Below, one piece after another: positions 30,900-48,496 of a DNA stretch of 64,000 nucleotides. Source of the DNA: Microbulbifer halophilus (lineage in GTDB: Bacteria; Pseudomonadota; Gammaproteobacteria; Pseudomonadales; Cellvibrionaceae); NCBI RefSeq assembly GCF_026183675.1, contig NZ_JAPIVK010000003.1, positions 68,407 through 132,406 of the forward strand, given 5' to 3'. Every line of letters begins with the position of its first letter. The stretch's first letter is position 1. Below the pieces are notes generated by a model. It had not been told where the DNA came from and did not search any database. It worked only from the letters and a program-made list of their open reading frames with translations. A program made the position numbers and the translations under genes.

Positions 30900-31069
30900 T
30901 CGAAAAATGCAGGTTTTAAATGTGACGTAGTTTGCATTTTTGTGTCGAGTATATCCATAAGCCGATAGAGACACCATAGACAGCTTTTTATTCTCCAAGG
31001 CTGCGGAGATAATTCGCGGTCGGCTGGCGGTTTTGCCGGCCGTGAATAAGTAATACTTGGGGAAAATTG

Positions 31070-31855
31070 ATGAAGAATCTACTGCGGCTGTCTTTTGCTG
31101 TTATTTTCACTGCCCTGGTCGGCTGTGCTACTCCACAACCACCGGTCCCTCTCGACCAGCAGTTCTACACTGCGGAGGACAAAAAGGTGGGCCTGATGCT
31201 CGAAGCTCCCGAAGCGCCCGATTTGGCGCTGGAAGGCAATATCGGCCTGCTGGACTACGCGATTATCGCCGCAGCCACCAGCTCCCTCAGCGAGCACTTT
31301 GAAAAACAGAACCTCAATGAATTTCTCGCCGTTGCTGAAGAGCTGAGCAGCAGCCTGGAGAAGGACGGCCTTACAGTGGTGCGCCTGGAAGTGCCGGAGG
31401 AGGCGCCGAAGCTCGCCAAGTTCAAGGACCCGGATTCCAAGGACCAGACCTACTACGCGTCCAGGGACCACCGCGGCCTTGTCGCGGAACACGGGGTCGA
31501 CTACCTGTTGAAACTGAAGGCCACCCGGGCCGGCCTTGCCCGCCCCTACTACGGCTTTGTGCCCACCGACGATCCCCGCGCGGTATTCGATGTGCACGGC
31601 GAGCTGATCGACCTGTCCACTAACGAGCTGCTCTGGTACGCCAATATTTCCCAATCCGCCTACGCCACCGGCGAGTGGGACGAGGGGCCGAATTTCCCCG
31701 GACTGACCAACACCTATTACGTGGTGATGAACAAGGCCAGGCAGGATGTTGTCAACGCGTTGGCAAGGAAATCCGATATCGACAATATCGCCCTGAACGA
31801 AGTTGAAGGGAATGCTGCTGAAGAAGAGTCGTCCGCGGCTGAAAGCGAAGAATAA
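31070..31855 (+). CDS. Putative lipoprotein of unknown function
   Basis: A 261-residue protein with a lipoprotein signal (MKNLLRLSFAVIFTALVGCA; lipobox LVGC). The mature part contains a segment like VDYLLKLKATRAGLARPYYGFVPTDD and FDVHGELIDLSTNELLWY, resembling proteins that describe outer-membrane surface factors, but no family is confidently recognised. The C-terminus is very acidic (EEESSAAESEE). An adjacent TTG at 31067 is possible; ATG is preferred, with GGGGAAAA ahead. A second lipoprotein gene follows 51 bases later on the same strand, so the pair is probably an operon. Confidence 0.7.
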   Translation: MKNLLRLSFAVIFTALVGCATPQPPVPLDQQFYTAEDKKVGLMLEAPEAPDLALEGNIGLLDYAIIAAATSSLSEHFEKQNLNEFLAVAEELSSSLEKDGLTVVRLEVPEEAPKLAKFKDPDSKDQTYYASRDHRGLVAEHGVDYLLKLKATRAGLARPYYGFVPTDDPRAVFDVHGELIDLSTNELLWYANISQSAYATGEWDEGPNFPGLTNTYYVVMNKARQDVVNALARKSDIDNIALNEVEGNAAEEESSAAESEE

Positions 31856-31906: not shown

Positions 31907-32821
31907 ATGAAAACAATAAGAAAACTGGCGCTGGCGGGCCTTCTGCTCGCCGGCTGTTCGCAGACATCCACCTACCACATCGCCGTCGGGGACACCCCGG
32001 CGATCCGGGCGCTAGACGGTATCTACCTGCAGATGGAACCGCTGGAAAACGGTCCTCTGACGGTGGAAGTACAGCCCGAGCCCTGGCGCTACCAGGCGGT
32101 GTCCTCACAGGCCGTCGCCGCCCAGTACTCGGCACCGCCGCCGTCCCCCGGAACCAGCCCGGGTCAGGCTGCTGCCGCCGGAGCGGTGGGCGGGCTGCTC
32201 GGTACGTTGATTGCGAAGGGAATGGTTAAAGACCAGGCGCAGGCGGCTGCGCAGCAACCGGCGATGCCCCTGGTGGAGAAGCTGATGGGGCGGGCGATAC
32301 AGCGCGATGTGCGCGAGGGGCTGGTGGACGGGGTGCTAACCTCTGGATTTGCCGCACAGCACTCGCTGATTTACGGGCCGCAAACCGATCGGGGCCTGGC
32401 CGTGCTGAAGTTGCAGCCGTCGATCAAGCTCACCAACCGGATGGATGTGTTCAAGTTCAATATCAATGCGGAGCTGTCCAGGAGCGGTGAGCAGCCGCTG
32501 TACAGAAACTCGATCGAATACTGGTCGGCGGGCACCGGCTACGGTGACAAGCTGGATAACCTCGCCTACTGGCAGGTGGCGGACCTGGAGGCGTTCTACC
32601 AGGAGCTGGACAGCGCGATTGCCCATACTTCCGATTATCTCGCCATGTCACTGGACGGGGCCCTGCCGGAGGCGCAGTCGCAACAGGCGACACACAAGGT
32701 TGCCGCTAACGGCGGCTGGGTCATGCTGCGCGGCAACGTGATCCGCGCCGGCGATGGCCTGACCGTAATCAGGGATCTGCGCGGCAATATTAAGATCATC
32801 CGCGGCTCACTGATGCAGTGA
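31907..32821 (+). CDS. Putative lipoprotein of unknown function
   Basis: A 304-residue lipoprotein (lipobox LLAGC, Cys about 17). A low-complexity Pro/Ala/Ser stretch (about residues 75-90) is followed by a Gly-rich hydrophobic segment AAAAGAVGGLLGTLIAKGM that resembles a glycine-zipper membrane motif, then a globular domain with LAVLKLQPSIKL and a C-terminal VAANGGWVMLRGNVI. No named family was recognised. It forms a likely operon with the lipoprotein upstream and converges with yciA, 11 bases apart. Confidence 0.7.
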   Translation: MKTIRKLALAGLLLAGCSQTSTYHIAVGDTPAIRALDGIYLQMEPLENGPLTVEVQPEPWRYQAVSSQAVAAQYSAPPPSPGTSPGQAAAAGAVGGLLGTLIAKGMVKDQAQAAAQQPAMPLVEKLMGRAIQRDVREGLVDGVLTSGFAAQHSLIYGPQTDRGLAVLKLQPSIKLTNRMDVFKFNINAELSRSGEQPLYRNSIEYWSAGTGYGDKLDNLAYWQVADLEAFYQELDSAIAHTSDYLAMSLDGALPEAQSQQATHKVAANGGWVMLRGNVIRAGDGLTVIRDLRGNIKIIRGSLMQ

Positions 32822-33383: not shown

Positions 33384-36300
33384 CTAGTCGCTCTCAAGTG
33401 CCAGCAGGTTGTCTTCCGGGTTCTTGTCGATCATCTTGATATAGGGATCGATACCCACCATCGCCGGCTCTCCCTCCACCTCGAATTCCAGACGGGTGCG
33501 GTTTTCATCGAACTCGTGTTTGGCGAAGTAGAGCACATGCCCGGAGCCTTCGGCTTTATCGGGATCTTCGCTGAAAACGGCGATATCCAGGCGGTTGTCC
33601 AGGGGAATTTCCGTTTCCCGACCCTCGCCGTCCGCCCGGAATTTCTTCGCCGAGACCTCCAGTGCCACCCGGTAGCGGCTGTCTCCCAGCGGCTCGGAAC
33701 TGGCGTCTTCCACCTTGAGGTCGAACAGCACGATGCGCTCCAGCATATCGCTGATCAGCTTCTGGTCCTCAGCCCCGGCGCGCTCGCGCAGCTGTGCCAC
33801 CAGGTCCATGCTGGTGGGATAGGGGTCGCTGGCGTAGGCGCTCTCCTCGAGCAGGGCCGCCAGCGCGCCGTTGATCGCCTCTTCGCCCATGGCGTCCTTG
33901 AGCGCGTACATGGCCACCGAGCCCTTGCGGTAGTGAACGTAGGGCTGGTCCTCGTTGCGCACCAGCGGCAGCTCTTCCAGCAGTTCTTCGCCGCGGCCGC
34001 TGAGATAGCGGTCCAGTTCGTACTTGAGGAACTTGCGGATCTTCCGCGGGCCGTACTCCCGTTCCATCACCATCAGTGCCGAGTACTGGGCCAGGGTTTC
34101 CGAGAGCATGGTCGCGCCCTGCACATCGGCGCCCAACAACTGGTGTGCCCACCACTGGTGCGCCACCTCATGGGCGGTGACGTAGAACACATAGTCGATA
34201 TCCTCCGGGTCGCGCAGGTCGGCGATAAAGCCGAGGGCCTCCGAATAGGGCACGGTATTGGGGAAGGCCTGGGCAAAGCGCTGATAGCCGGGGAACTCCA
34301 CGATGCGCAACTGGCGGTACTGGTAGGGACTGAACGCCTCGCTGAAATAGGCCAGCGATCGCTTCACGCTCTCCACCATGCGCGGCACATTGTAGTCGTG
34401 GGGCTTGTGGTGATAGACCTCTATGGCCACGTCCCGCCACTGGTCCCTCATCACCGTGTAGTTCGCGGACAGATAGGAGAAAAAGTTGTGGATGGGCGCA
34501 TCCATTTTGTAGTGGAAGTAGTGGCGATTGCCGTCCACCCAATCTTTCTGCAGATAGCCCGGCGCCAGGGCCGTCTGCCCGGCGCTGGTGCTGACGGTGG
34601 TTTCGAAGGTCACCCAGTCGGAATCGCCGCGCAGATAGGAGTCGCCGTGGTGGCTCCGGTCCTCCAGTTTGTGCATCCGCTGTGGCGGCGGCAGATCGTA
34701 TTTTCTGCGCAGGTGGCGGTCGGTCAGCTCGGCGCCCTTGTTGTAACCGATATACGGAAAGGCCTCCATGTTGTTGAAAAAGGCACCGTTGGCCACCAGC
34801 GTGGTGGAGGAACCGGCGTTTTCGAAGCCGCGGTTTATCCTGCTCAGATCGAAGTCCAGGGTCAGGGACTCGCCCGGAGCCAGGGGTTGCGACAGGTCGA
34901 AAAAGCGATAGCCGAAGCGCTGATCCGTCTCCTGCAGCTCGGCGCCGCTCAGGGTTAACCGGTTGACGGTGAGGCCGCGGTCCAGGCCCACCATTATCTC
35001 GTCGATCGGCTCGGCGGTTTTATTTTCCAGCCGGTAGCTGCCGCGCACTTCGTAGCGACGCTCGTCCGGGAAAATATCCACGTCCGCCTTCACATCGGTA
35101 ATACGCGGCAGCGCGGCCTCGGCGTAGCTCTTGTATTTTTTCTCGTAGTCCGCCGCCCACTCTTCCCGGTCCTTGCTGGTTTCGTAGTCGTTGAGAATAT
35201 TGGTGTTGTAGAAAATGAAAGTGCCACTGGCCAAAAACAACAGCAGGGCGGTGCCACAGATGACGCGGCTGGGCGCGCCCAGCCGGTGCGGCAACATCCG
35301 CAGCCGGCCGCCGAGAGATTGCAGGGTGCCGCGCTGCCAGAGGCCGTAACTGAGCACCGCCAGCACCACGCTGAAGCAGCTCCAGTAAAAGGTGAGCCAG
35401 GCCCGGCCCTGTTCGAAGTGGCCGTAGCCGTTCATATCCGAATAGGGCGCCTCGCCGGTACCGGCAAACTGGTAGAGGTTGTGCTCGAAACCGAGGCCGT
35501 CCAATACCATGGTGCTGATCAGATAGCCCACCATGATCAACATCGCCAGGAATTTGTTGCGCGTGAGCACCTGCACAAAGAGCGACAGCACTGCCATCAG
35601 ATAATACGGCGTGGCCACGTGGTACCAGACTCCGTACAGATACAGGCCGGGTTCGAGGTTGAAATAGCCTTTGGCAAGCTGTACCGATACGGTGGTCGCG
35701 ACACTGGCGATCAGCACGCCCATCAGCACCACCAGCATGGCGACAAATTTGCTGAGTACGAAAATCCAGTTGGGGGTGGGTACCGCATCCATGATCTCGT
35801 TGCAGCCGGACTGGCGCTCGCGCCATACCAGTTCTGCGCCGTAGTAGATCAGGACAATCAGCATGATCAGACTGAAGGCGCCCTGAATCAGGTCCACCAT
35901 GATACGGGTCACCGGATACACGGAGGTGCCGAAGAGCGCTCCCAGATCCAGGCTGGCGCCCAGTATATTGAACATGCCCAGCGCCAGAATCACCCAGAAG
36001 GCCAGGCTCTTGAGCACCGCTTTCACCTCGAAGGCGCAGCGGGTCCTAAACTGCAGCCAGGTGGTGCCGGCATTGAACACCGGCGCGAGCCGCGGCAGTT
36101 GTGCTGGGCCCACCTCCCGGCCCGTTTCCTCTTCAACCGGCGCGTTTTTTTTGCGGGACCAGAGGGGTTTTCTGTCGGCGAAGGAAAAAAAGCGGTAGCT
36201 CAGCAGCAGGAAAACCGCGCTGGCGCCCAGCCAGATCAGCCGGTTGAACAGAAACTCCCCCTCCATGGGCAGCATCGATGTGTTGCGTTCGAATGCGGTC

Positions 36301-36968
36301 CAGTAGCGGGTGGCGTTTTCAAACGCGGCGTAACCGAAAGGGTCCAGCAGCGAGGCGATGCCGCGGTTGGCGGGCTCATCCAGCATGCCCTGGCTGGTGA
36401 AGTAGAGCACCAGGAAGGCGATCAGCCCCGTGTAGGTGGCCATCATGCTGCGGGTGAGCGCCGCCAGGCTGAAAAACAGCGCGGCGCAGAACAGCAGGCT
36501 GGGCAGGGTGAGCAGAAACAGCGCCTGTGTATAGTAGGCGATATGCGTGGGGCCCAGGCGCTCTGCGTCCAGCCAGGGCATCCAGGAGCCCAGCAGTATG
36601 CCCAGCGCGCTGGCGGAAAAGGCGATAAAGGCCACCGCGAAGGCGCCGCTAAAACGCCCGAACAGATAGTCGCCCTTGCGGATCGGCGCGCTGAACAGGA
36701 TGCCGTCCATTTTCATATCCCGGTCGCGCAGTACCGGGTTGGCGGAAAAGGCGGTGGTGATGAAAATACTGAAAACACTCATCACCATCAGCGTCTGTAT
36801 GATGGCGTAGGGGGAGTTGATCAGTGTGCTGCCGCCACCACCGCCAATCTGGATACTGTCGACCGTAGTGGCGCCGAAGGTGAGCAGGAAAAATACCAGG
36901 CTGGTGACGTAGAACACCGGCTGGCGGATCTGGTAGAGAAATTCGAATTTTGCGATGGATGTGAACAC
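33384..36968 (-). CDS. ABC-2 permease fused to an M1-type aminopeptidase
   Basis: An unusual 1194-residue fusion. Residues 1-about 600 are hydrophobic ABC-2-type permease sequence with two blocks of about six helices around a soluble linker (near 290-320). After a further helix near 585-605 comes a periplasmic M1-like region with the zinc site HEVAHQWW (His933, Glu934, His937). The downstream candidate third ligand, Glu957, gives HEXXH-X19-E instead of the usual X18. The GAMEN-type substrate motif was not seen. The partner ATPase is encoded immediately upstream (15 bases), so the pair should form one transporter carrying its own peptidase domain. Substrate and physiological role are unknown. 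Similar fusions occur in several Gammaproteobacteria. Confidence 0.88.
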   Translation of the reverse strand: MFTSIAKFEFLYQIRQPVFYVTSLVFFLLTFGATTVDSIQIGGGGGSTLINSPYAIIQTLMVMSVFSIFITTAFSANPVLRDRDMKMDGILFSAPIRKGDYLFGRFSGAFAVAFIAFSASALGILLGSWMPWLDAERLGPTHIAYYTQALFLLTLPSLLFCAALFFSLAALTRSMMATYTGLIAFLVLYFTSQGMLDEPANRGIASLLDPFGYAAFENATRYWTAFERNTSMLPMEGEFLFNRLIWLGASAVFLLLSYRFFSFADRKPLWSRKKNAPVEEETGREVGPAQLPRLAPVFNAGTTWLQFRTRCAFEVKAVLKSLAFWVILALGMFNILGASLDLGALFGTSVYPVTRIMVDLIQGAFSLIMLIVLIYYGAELVWRERQSGCNEIMDAVPTPNWIFVLSKFVAMLVVLMGVLIASVATTVSVQLAKGYFNLEPGLYLYGVWYHVATPYYLMAVLSLFVQVLTRNKFLAMLIMVGYLISTMVLDGLGFEHNLYQFAGTGEAPYSDMNGYGHFEQGRAWLTFYWSCFSVVLAVLSYGLWQRGTLQSLGGRLRMLPHRLGAPSRVICGTALLLFLASGTFIFYNTNILNDYETSKDREEWAADYEKKYKSYAEAALPRITDVKADVDIFPDERRYEVRGSYRLENKTAEPIDEIMVGLDRGLTVNRLTLSGAELQETDQRFGYRFFDLSQPLAPGESLTLDFDLSRINRGFENAGSSTTLVANGAFFNNMEAFPYIGYNKGAELTDRHLRRKYDLPPPQRMHKLEDRSHHGDSYLRGDSDWVTFETTVSTSAGQTALAPGYLQKDWVDGNRHYFHYKMDAPIHNFFSYLSANYTVMRDQWRDVAIEVYHHKPHDYNVPRMVESVKRSLAYFSEAFSPYQYRQLRIVEFPGYQRFAQAFPNTVPYSEALGFIADLRDPEDIDYVFYVTAHEVAHQWWAHQLLGADVQGATMLSETLAQYSALMVMEREYGPRKIRKFLKYELDRYLSGRGEELLEELPLVRNEDQPYVHYRKGSVAMYALKDAMGEEAINGALAALLEESAYASDPYPTSMDLVAQLRERAGAEDQKLISDMLERIVLFDLKVEDASSEPLGDSRYRVALEVSAKKFRADGEGRETEIPLDNRLDIAVFSEDPDKAEGSGHVLYFAKHEFDENRTRLEFEVEGEPAMVGIDPYIKMIDKNPEDNLLALESD

Positions 36969-36983
36969 GTTTTTCCTCCTGGC

Positions 36984-37877
36984 TCAGGCCGCGGTTTCCA
37001 GCGACGAGCGCTCTAGGTCAAAGAGGGTGGAGAAGTACACATCTTCCAGATCCGGCCGCAGCGGCTCGAAGGATTCGTGTGGTTGGCCGTCGCTGAGTAC
37101 ATGCACCAGGGTTTTGCCGGCGAAGAGGCGGGTGGAGATCACATCGAAATCCGCGCGGCACTGGGCCAGCTCGGATTTGTCGACGGTCTTGCGCCATATC
37201 CGGCCCCGCAGTTTCTCCACCAGTTCCTCCGGCCTGCCCCCGGCGACTATTTGCCCGCCGGCGAGAATGGCCATGCTCGGGCAGAGATCAGCCACGTCTT
37301 CGACGATATGCGTGGAGAGAATCACCACCACATTCTCGCCGATTTCGCTCAGCAGGTTGTGAAAGCGGTTGCGCTCCTGGGGGTCGAGGCCGGCGGTGGG
37401 CTCGTCGACGATGATCAGCTTCGGGTCGCCGATCAGCGCCTGGGCGATACCGAAGCGCTGGCGCATGCCGCCGGAATAGCCGCTCAGGTTATTTTTTCGG
37501 TCCTTGTACAGATTGGTCTGCGCCAGCAGCTCCGCCACCAGTTCGCGGCGTTGCTTTTTGTTGCTGATACCTTTGAGCACCGCCATATGCTCCAGCATAT
37601 CCTCGGCGCTGATACGCGGGTAAACGCCGAAGTCCTGTGGCAGATAGCCGAGGCTCGCGCGGATTTGTTCCGGCTGGGTGGCCACATCGATACCGTCGAA
37701 AGTAATGGAACCGCTGTCCGCCAGTTGCAGGGTGGCGATGGTCCGCATCAACGAGGATTTTCCGGCGCCGTTGGGGCCCAGCAGTCCGAACATGCCTTTG
37801 GGGATGTCCAGGTTGACGTTTTTCAGGGCCTGAACGCGGTTGTCGTAGGTTTTGCAGAGATTGCGGATTTGCAGCAT
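36984..37877 (-). CDS. ABC transporter ATP-binding protein
   Basis: A 297-residue ATPase with Walker A GPNGAGKSSL, Q-loop YLPQDFGVYP, signature YSGGMRQRFGIAQAL, Walker B LIIVDEPTAGLDP and the switch His in LSTHIVEDV. This is the pattern of ABC-2 export ATPases. A frame open to 38177 is not used; the ATG at 37877, with AAGGGA upstream, gives the normal family start (MLQIRNLCKTY). It lies directly upstream of the ABC-2/M1 fusion on the same strand, forming its energising subunit. The about 80 bases beyond it separate it from the TRAP permease genes. Confidence 0.94.
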   Translation of the reverse strand: MLQIRNLCKTYDNRVQALKNVNLDIPKGMFGLLGPNGAGKSSLMRTIATLQLADSGSITFDGIDVATQPEQIRASLGYLPQDFGVYPRISAEDMLEHMAVLKGISNKKQRRELVAELLAQTNLYKDRKNNLSGYSGGMRQRFGIAQALIGDPKLIIVDEPTAGLDPQERNRFHNLLSEIGENVVVILSTHIVEDVADLCPSMAILAGGQIVAGGRPEELVEKLRGRIWRKTVDKSELAQCRADFDVISTRLFAGKTLVHVLSDGQPHESFEPLRPDLEDVYFSTLFDLERSSLETAA

Positions 37878-47215: not shown

Positions 47216-48496
47216 TTATCCCTGGCCGTCCAGCGCTTGCATCCGCGCCTGCGCCCGGCTGCCGATCTCGCCGCCGGCCCGCGCTGCGGTCTGGTAGTGG
47301 CTGTAGGCGTTCCTGACATTGCCCTGCTGTTCGTAGACCTGCCCCAGGTAGTAGTGGGCGTAGGGCGTCTCCAGATAGCCCAGTGAGCGGTTCAGGTCGC
47401 GCTCCGCGGCGGTGTAGTTCTCCAGCTGGGCGCTGGTCATGCCGCGCTTGAGCCAGTGGGAAAACAGCTCCGGGTTCTTTTGAACGGCGCGGTCGTAGGC
47501 TCGGTGGGCGCCCTGGTACTGCTTCTTCTGTGCTAGCAGATCCCCCTCCAGCGCGTAGAAGGTCGCTTCTTTGGGCTGCTGTTTCTGGGCCCGGCGCACC
47601 AGGGTCAGGGCGCGGTCGTACTGTTTGTCGCCGGCGGCCGCCATGGCCTCGTCGTAGCTCTTGTAGGCGTCCGCATCGCGCTTGAGCTGGGCGATGGCCC
47701 GCTGGTAGGCGGCGCGGTTGGTGGCGCCGCCCTTGGGCAGCTTTCTGGCGTGTTCGATATTCGCGTCGACCCGTGCCTGGGACGGCGGGTGGCTGGCAAA
47801 CAGCGCCTGCAGGCCGCCGGACTGGCGCCCTTTCGACAGCTCCACGAATTTCTCCTGCAACCGCACCGCGCCCTGCGGATCGTAGCCGGCGGCGGCCATG
47901 TATTGCATGCCGTATTCGTCGGATTCCAGCTCGTTGTCGCGGCCGTAGCGGGCGATATAGGCGCTGCCGCCCAACTGGCCGCCGAGGGCCACCAGATCGC
48001 CGTAGTCGGTGTTCTTGGTGGTGGCGCCCAGCACTGCCAGGCCCGCGCCCAGTACCTGCTGCTGGGACATGGCGGCGGCGGAGTGGCGCGCGGCGGCGTG
48101 GACGATCTCGTGGGCGAGCACCGCGGCCAGTTCCGATTCGTCTTCGAGGATGGTCAACAGGCCGCGGTTGACCGCGATCTTGCCGCCCGGCAGCGCCCAG
48201 GCGTTGGGCGTGGAGTTGTTCAGCACTGCGAACTCGTAGGGCAGCTGCGGCTGGTCCGACTCCCGCGCCAGCTTCTGGCCCACGCGGCTGACGTAGTCCT
48301 GCAGCGACGGGTCGACGATATATTTGCCGCCCTGCTGTTGCTGGTTGACGGGGTACTGCTCCTCTCCCAGCGACAGCTCCTGGCCCTGGGACATCAGCGA
48401 CAGCTCCTTCTTGCCGGTCACCGGGTTGACCGCACAGCCGGCCAGCAGTGAAACGGCCGCGGCGGCCGCGGTTATCTTGAGTGTGCGCGAGATCAT
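47216..48496 (-). CDS. M48-family periplasmic metalloprotease lipoprotein with TPR region (BepA-like)
   Basis: A 426-residue lipoprotein (lipobox LLAGC, Cys21) with an M48 peptidase domain. The zinc motif HEIVH is at residues 129-133, with the third ligand Glu in ELESDEYGMQYM. The C-terminal half (about residues 275-420) has tetratricopeptide-like helices. The layout matches BepA/YfgC, which quality-controls LptD and BamA assembly at the outer membrane. RMSQ-type segments such as NAWALPGGKIAVNRGLL match M48. It is transcribed alone between the terminator and the divergent DUF4265 gene. Confidence 0.88.
   Translation of the reverse strand: MISRTLKITAAAAAVSLLAGCAVNPVTGKKELSLMSQGQELSLGEEQYPVNQQQQGGKYIVDPSLQDYVSRVGQKLARESDQPQLPYEFAVLNNSTPNAWALPGGKIAVNRGLLTILEDESELAAVLAHEIVHAAARHSAAAMSQQQVLGAGLAVLGATTKNTDYGDLVALGGQLGGSAYIARYGRDNELESDEYGMQYMAAAGYDPQGAVRLQEKFVELSKGRQSGGLQALFASHPPSQARVDANIEHARKLPKGGATNRAAYQRAIAQLKRDADAYKSYDEAMAAAGDKQYDRALTLVRRAQKQQPKEATFYALEGDLLAQKKQYQGAHRAYDRAVQKNPELFSHWLKRGMTSAQLENYTAAERDLNRSLGYLETPYAHYYLGQVYEQQGNVRNAYSHYQTAARAGGEIGSRAQARMQALDGQG

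Follow-up and report, generated by a model that had tools for sequence, protein, structure and literature searches.

An ABC-2 permease fused to an M1-fold domain in Microbulbifer halophilus belongs to a family with altered aminopeptidase motifs and a conserved metal site

Fusion of an ABC-2 domain (ABC, ATP-binding cassette) to a C-terminal M1 peptidase has been described before. Q1D520 of Myxococcus xanthus, 1200 amino acids (aa) long and with 13 transmembrane segments (TMS), was placed in 2013 in a new family, TC 3.A.1.145.1 (PMC3924187), by the only paper among those consulted that describes such a fusion. The accessible part of that paper conjectures that Q1D520 exports an amino acid, something derived from one, or some product of amino acid metabolism; that part contains nothing on the spacing of the zinc motif, a missing GAMEN motif, the conservation of the zinc site or a tested function. 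Here we analysed a protein of the same kind, encoded with its ATPase at positions 33384 to 37877 of a 64,000-nucleotide stretch of Microbulbifer halophilus DNA (contig NZ_JAPIVK010000003.1; the whole stretch is called the window below). By its architecture it can be likened to TC 3.A.1.145: 13 hydrophobic helices with the ABC-2 part at the N-terminus, a hydrophilic M1 C-terminus, and a similar length of 1194 aa. The architecture itself was thus already published. What we add is a 19-residue spacing (X19) in the zinc motif across the family, the loss of the GAMEN glutamate from proteins that retain the zinc ligands and the tyrosine, the likeness of the permease to NosY, to an efflux pump and to PmtD, and the close pairing with an ATPase. 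For X19 or a missing GAMEN in this fusion family no paper was found, in a search that was thin on subscription journals.

The fusion shares with peptidase family M1 (PepN, ERAP2, LTA4H, F3, the D. radiodurans M1 enzyme) domains I to III, the HEXXH motif, the distal Glu and the Tyr. It differs from that family by X19 instead of X18, by the absence of GAMEN and of domain IV, and by its junction to an ABC permease. According to the accessible part of PMC10343166, 18 residues separate HEXXH from the Glu in the M1 motif, the glutamate of GAMENW is specific to aminopeptidases and positioned to bind the substrate N-terminus, and a second amine-binding Glu lies in domain I (Glu180 of PSA). Simulations of PfA-M1, in the accessible part of PMC3244404, have the GAMEN glutamate also holding the nucleophilic water.

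The window encodes a two-gene unit, made of an ABC ATPase and an ABC-2 permease/M1-fold fusion:

36984-37877, minus strand: ABC-2-type ATPase gene, 297 aa, ATG at 37877
33384-36968, minus strand: fusion gene, 1194 aa, GTG start, open reading frame (ORF) without internal stop

The fusion gene lies downstream of the ATPase gene, and 15 bases separate the ATPase stop codon from the fusion GTG, ahead of which stands AGGAGG (36980-36975). An earlier note, made from the sequence alone, had placed the ATPase directly upstream, as is the case. No promoter-like site was found ahead of the ATPase gene, in a scan that was uninformative. The ATPase matches Pfam ABC_tran (E 2.5e-30), and its motifs can be read in the sequence (Walker A GPNGAGKS, signature YSGGM, Walker B LIIVDEP, H-loop STH). 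The closest PDB sequences were the ATPase domains of ABCA7 and ABCA1, with NosF among those listed. In the fusion, Pfam detected ABC2_membrane_2 at residues 4-265 (E 7e-12, above the cut-off), ABC2_membrane_4 at 324-484 (below the cut-off) and Peptidase_M1 (PF01433) at 865-1065 (E 1.6e-10, 41.4 bits against a cut-off of 27.7); no NCBIfam model matched it.

An AlphaFold2 (AF2) model of the fusion was computed from a family alignment of 39 rows (mean predicted local distance difference test, pLDDT, 85.4; predicted template modelling score 0.80). Its C-terminal part begins with a beta saddle (622-853), continues with a helical catalytic domain (861-1077) and closes with a beta sandwich (1080-1175); these are domains I to III of the M1 fold:

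34404-35177, minus strand: M1 domain I, beta saddle and linking helix 598-617, residues 598-855 (model; VIA-align to PepN, F3 and LTA4H)
33735-34403, minus strand: M1 domain II, catalytic, residues 856-1078 (Pfam PF01433; conservation)
33384-33734, minus strand: domain III beta sandwich and C-terminus, residues 1079-1194 (model, VIA-align)

In VIA-align, model residues 605-1187 matched Neisseria PepN (2gtq) with a Z of 28.8, a root-mean-square deviation (rmsd) of 5.0 and 488 aligned residues. Further matches with Z of 27-29 were obtained with F3, LTA4H, IRAP, ERAP1 and the Deinococcus M1 enzyme, and 1z1w scored 28.6. The permease/M1-like fusion of 1194 residues that the earlier note had announced is thus confirmed both by Pfam and by the fold. 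As the PepN match spans only residues 4-539 of the 864-residue 2gtq chain, the helical domain IV has no counterpart in the fusion.

The active-site positions were then read in a family alignment. Of 198 matching ORFs, 181 (from 180 loci) were accepted by the fusion filter; these comprise 168 distinct sequences, among them the copy from the query's own genome (L088), and with the query they form 169 rows. Dropping rows at least 95% identical leaves 164 and the same picture. The 17 ORFs left outside are partial, permease-only or M1-only (L179, L180, L181 and L185 are among them). The alignment leans towards close relatives, since the best-matching loci were taken first, and 20 weaker loci from the phylum of L061 were added deliberately; loci gathered afterwards do not enter it. 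The positions of interest are:

34263-34277, minus strand: FAQAF, residues 898-902, GAMEN-equivalent position (alignment)
34158-34172, minus strand: HEVAH zinc motif, residues 933-937 (HEXXH kept in 167 of 169 rows)
34098-34100, minus strand: E957, third zinc ligand by alignment, spacing X19 (Glu in 168 of 169)
33930-33932, minus strand: Y1013, catalytic-Tyr equivalent (Tyr in 167 of 169)

The motif H933-E934-xx-H937 is followed after 19 residues by E957, exactly as the earlier note had it. The His is kept at H933 and at H937 in 167 rows each, the Glu at E934 and at E957 in 168 each, and the Tyr at Y1013 in 167; HEXXH and the distal Glu are found together in 167. A loss of HEXXH in most family members, which would have spoken against the earlier note, is therefore not what the alignment contains. 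Y1013, whose counterpart in M1 enzymes we take to be the catalytic Tyr, corresponds in the alignment to the Tyr in Y-x-K-(G/S), a motif carried by the five stand-alone M1 peptidases (PF01433) of the same genome. The spacing from HEXXH to the Glu is 19 residues in 156 rows, 20 in 10 and 16 in one, so that the X18 of M1 enzymes is replaced by X19 in the query and in most of the family. The earlier note had called this spacing atypical; X19 is real, but within the fusion family it is typical. The absence of GAMEN that it had reported also holds: F898-A-Q-A-F902 stands in its place, and at the column of the glutamate (901) the alignment has Ser in 109 rows, Ala in 55, Gly in 3, Leu in 1, Thr in 1 and Glu in none. 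By comparison, HEXXH-X18-E was counted by eye in all five stand-alone enzymes of the genome, four of which carry GxMEN and the fifth GATEL. On this alignment, X19 and the loss of GAMEN are a rule of the family and not a peculiarity of the window protein. The pattern is not due to chance, since it holds across the 169 rows (164 non-redundant) and the predicted fold agrees with that of an M1 enzyme of known structure.

How can the additional residue be accommodated? In the model, the HEXXH helix spans 926-940, a short helix 952-955 follows, and E957 opens the next long helix (957-972). In a profile alignment to ERAP2, E957 pairs with the ERAP2 glutamate, and the loop that follows the HEXXH helix is one residue longer in the fusion, which accounts for X19. 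The zinc site formed by H933, H937 and E957 is thus placed by alignment, from sequence and helix order. Residues 716-748, where the second amine-binding Glu was sought, could not be aligned reliably with stand-alone M1 enzymes.

Do these changes leave an enzyme, and of which type? Most likely the M1-fold domain is an active peptidase, given that the zinc ligands H933, H937 and E957, the general base E934 and also Y1013 are all present in it and conserved in the family. An alternative is that the domain serves chiefly for binding or docking, with weak or no catalysis. It would fit with the GAMEN glutamate being absent from all 169 rows, with X19 in place of X18, and with the zinc site being lost in two of the 169 and in four distant relatives outside that count. 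We consider it improbable, because conservation peaks on domain II and on the H, E, H, E and Y positions (167 to 168 of 169 rows), beyond what a docking fold needs. Domain II is indeed the most conserved part of the protein, with a mean identity to the query of 55% against 36-42% for the other folded domains, and the catalytic domain had the lowest ratio of nonsynonymous to synonymous substitutions (dN/dS 0.16, in one comparison of the fusion with L007).

The loss of the GAMEN motif argues against an ordinary aminopeptidase, and calls for caution about catalysis as such. This bears on the 2013 suggestion for Q1D520, taken here as an exporter of amino acids or derivatives carrying an ordinary aminopeptidase, which has a published proposal (in the accessible part of PMC3924187) and the database product name 'M1 family aminopeptidase' in its favour. 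We regard it as very improbable: the aminopeptidase-specific glutamate is absent from 169 of 169 rows, and in that part of PMC3924187 it is the peptidase domain's being there that gave rise to the proposal. Most likely, the fusion would instead cut peptides internally or trim substrates presented by the permease and would not be a general aminopeptidase, as the GAMEN part of the pocket for the N-terminal amine is missing and there is no domain IV lid.

We now turn to the permease. The model helices form two six-helix halves (~1-265 and ~300-550), followed by a thirteenth helix (565-591):

36174-36968, minus strand: permease half 1, residues 1-265, six transmembrane (TM) helices (Pfam ABC2_membrane_2; fold)
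36072-36173, minus strand: basic linker, residues 266-299, predicted cytosolic, variable (charge; mean identity 20%)
35319-36071, minus strand: permease half 2, residues 300-550, six TM helices (PmtD profile and fold)
35196-35276, minus strand: thirteenth TM helix (TM13), residues 565-591 (AF2 helix, hydropathy, charge balance)

Two six-helix halves together with an ATPase whose motifs are intact are what is expected of an ABC-2 (type V-like) transporter; the pair may carry out ATP-driven export. Residues 261-321 carry on average in the family 10.9 K/R versus 3.8 D/E. Basic loops are found at 261-321 and 544-564, and the short loops on the opposite side are poor in K/R, though 592-622 is mixed. 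This charge pattern predicts a cytosolic N-terminus and a periplasmic M1 domain; TM13 is thus predicted to carry the C-terminal domain to the periplasmic side.

Three ABC-2 systems with a separate ATPase deserve comparison. NosDFY moves a periplasmic partner rather than pumping, and its working domain in the periplasm, NosD, is a separate protein of another fold. The mycobacterial efflux pump with ATPase Rv1218c (8k1n, 8k1p), whose permease is presumably Rv1217c, has both permease halves in one chain. PmtCD exports phenol-soluble modulins (PSM). Folds were compared with VIA-align on a separate model of residues 1-600, and scores for helical bundles call for caution. Half 1 was nearest to NosY (Z 19.8, rmsd 3.1, 231 aligned), half 2 matched PmtD (profile E 0.0026; fold Z 15.6 over residues 300-549), and both halves matched the single efflux pump chain 8k1p (Z 17.3, 459 aligned); the match to ABCG2 had a Z near 16. 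For the permease part, Foldseek by itself found nothing at E 0.001 or better. The mycobacterial and Pmt chains matched are of 509-530 and ~250 residues, too short to include a fused M1 domain. With NosDFY the pair shares a NosY-like fold in half 1 and an ATPase related to NosF; it differs by an M1 fold that is covalently attached and by two permease halves in one chain.

Taken together, we tentatively read the pair as an ATP-driven envelope machine, in which an active periplasmic peptidase would be coupled to the movement of a substrate; we hold this reading with some doubt. Two copies of the ATPase would power a single permease chain containing both six-helix halves, a stoichiometry that is inferred, and the thirteenth helix would place the M1-fold domain in the periplasm. 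The permease would extrude a peptide or lipopeptide from the cytosol or the outer leaflet, and this substrate would be cut while emerging beneath the peptidase domain; this is the weakest step. The conserved catalytic residues and the regular pairing with the ATPase speak for this reading, and so does the predicted permease fold, which appears to be shared with a single-chain efflux pump and with PmtD, an exporter of PSM peptides. That cleavage and transport are coupled, as put forward in the earlier note, is plausible as a hypothesis.

The main rival is a mechanical coupling without transport, as in NosDFY: the permease would relay an ATP stroke by which the peptidase is opened, closed or loaded, and the substrates of the peptidase would be proteins of the periplasm or the outer leaflet. 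In its favour, half 1 resembles NosY most closely (Z above those of the efflux pump and of ABCG2), TM13 tethers the peptidase, and the conserved loops 209-229 and 509-518 are predicted on the same periplasmic side. However, half 2 is listed with the exporter PmtD, both halves match the efflux pump, and the differences in Z are small. Moreover, nothing like a NosD domain was seen in the fusion, and of ten window genes searched in Pfam seven had a match, none of them a nos gene; outside the window the genome was not searched for NosD. We find this explanation unlikely, although it is a serious one.

Several observations weigh against coupled cleavage and transport. The nearest fold to half 1 belongs to NosDFY, a system that is not known as a pump. 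The GAMEN glutamate has a role in binding the water, so that its loss could weaken catalysis, and pLDDT falls below 50 at residues 896-898, beside the GAMEN-equivalent stretch. The zinc ligands are replaced in 2 of the 169 fusions (L193 and L201, both from the phylum of L061), and four distant permease and M1-like proteins have, by eye, no HEXXH (L179, L180, L181 and L185); counting these as well, 6 of 173 are without the zinc site. Finally, no substrate, cargo gene or phenotype was found, and the ATPase is the only neighbour that recurs throughout the compared loci. The four proteins without HEXXH come from the phylum of L020 (Acidobacteriota) and are natural non-catalytic relatives of the fusion.

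C39 or peptidase-containing ABC transporters (PCAT) likewise have a peptidase joined to an ABC transporter. In C39 systems it is an N-terminal cytosolic cysteine peptidase, carried on another exporter type; Pfam gave no C39 match in the fusion.

The distribution of the family was examined in one scan of genome contigs, which gave 467 pattern matches and 456 relatives, of which 80 were kept. Among these 80, the nearest named relatives are six Microbulbifer loci (73-77% protein identity), and record titles point to several phyla (Microbulbifer, Acidobacteriota, Gemmatimonadetes, Ignavibacteria, Myxococcota). Some match was found in 41 of 299 sampled genomes of the query's own phylum, with a full-length fusion in 19 of these; as none of the 41 comes from the same family or order outside the genus, the distribution is patchy. 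A match at E 1e-15 was present in 60 of 247 sampled genomes of the L061 phylum (Ignavibacteria bin) and in 28 of 149 of the L020 phylum, counts that take in some fragments or stand-alone M1 proteins. By tblastn, 96 of 98 loci have the ATPase gene upstream in the same orientation, at 60 bases or less in 95 of them. In L023 (4271-8001; a Gemmatimonadetes bin) the gap is ~2.9 kb with ORFs between, and L074 is cut by the contig end. A genome of the same genus holds a second, divergent ATPase-fusion pair (L117:1357-5492), with HEXXH-X19-E and without GAMEN. A copy on a Sphingomonas plasmid (L209:5001-8589) is annotated as two genes and is perhaps broken. Among plasmid records with a match, 7 of 25 are named 'M1 family aminopeptidase', and others are named 'hypothetical protein' or 'ABC transporter permease'.

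The neighbourhood was also inspected. Upstream of the pair and on the same strand lie TRAP (tripartite ATP-independent periplasmic) transporter genes DctQ/DctM; downstream is a YciA-like thioesterase (below the NCBIfam cut-off), and phosphate-transport genes are also nearby. ORF clustering, first in a crude form and then refined on 65 selected loci, revealed no conserved cargo gene: of the conserved neighbours whose mapping the earlier note had proposed, the ATPase is near-constant and stands alone. A histidine kinase/LytTR pair occurs near the ATPase-fusion pair in 7 of the 65 loci (L053, L061, L210, L216, L223, L227 and L230). Four of the seven belong to a group of 20 loci, for which ~0.5 would be expected within ~3 kb, an expectation calculated by hand from 235 LytTR domains in ~85 Mb (20 genomes) for an association noticed after the fact. 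None was seen beside the window's copy; the kinase/LytTR pair is possibly a regulator of the fusion system, which we offer only as a lead. Elsewhere in the window, an M48 peptidase with tetratricopeptide repeats (47216-48496, minus strand) presumably resembles BepA, and two adjacent genes with lipoprotein-like starts (31067-31855 and 31907-32821, plus strand) have no Pfam match at E 1e-4. Two other ideas were discarded. PADLOC gave no hit for the fusion as a defence system, and its hits for the ATPase look like generic ATPase similarity. For a link to lanthipeptides the literature search was empty; the 'peptidase M1' entries of PMC7794033 are, in its accessible part, Peptidase M16.

A bolder conjecture, which we think rather unlikely, is that a widespread branch of M1 gave up aminopeptidase chemistry and became an ATP-gated periplasmic endopeptidase or processing peptidase, with an active site that is supplied or opened by the ABC-2 motor of its own chain. 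Should the missing GAMEN have the meaning it suggests, 'M1 family aminopeptidase' is the wrong name for the enzyme. An ATP motor joined to a periplasmic metallopeptidase, complete in two genes, would be a good system in which to study how cytosolic ATP controls work in the periplasm. With the metal site apparently kept and the part that makes an aminopeptidase apparently lost, what the fusion peptidase cuts, if anything, becomes a testable question.

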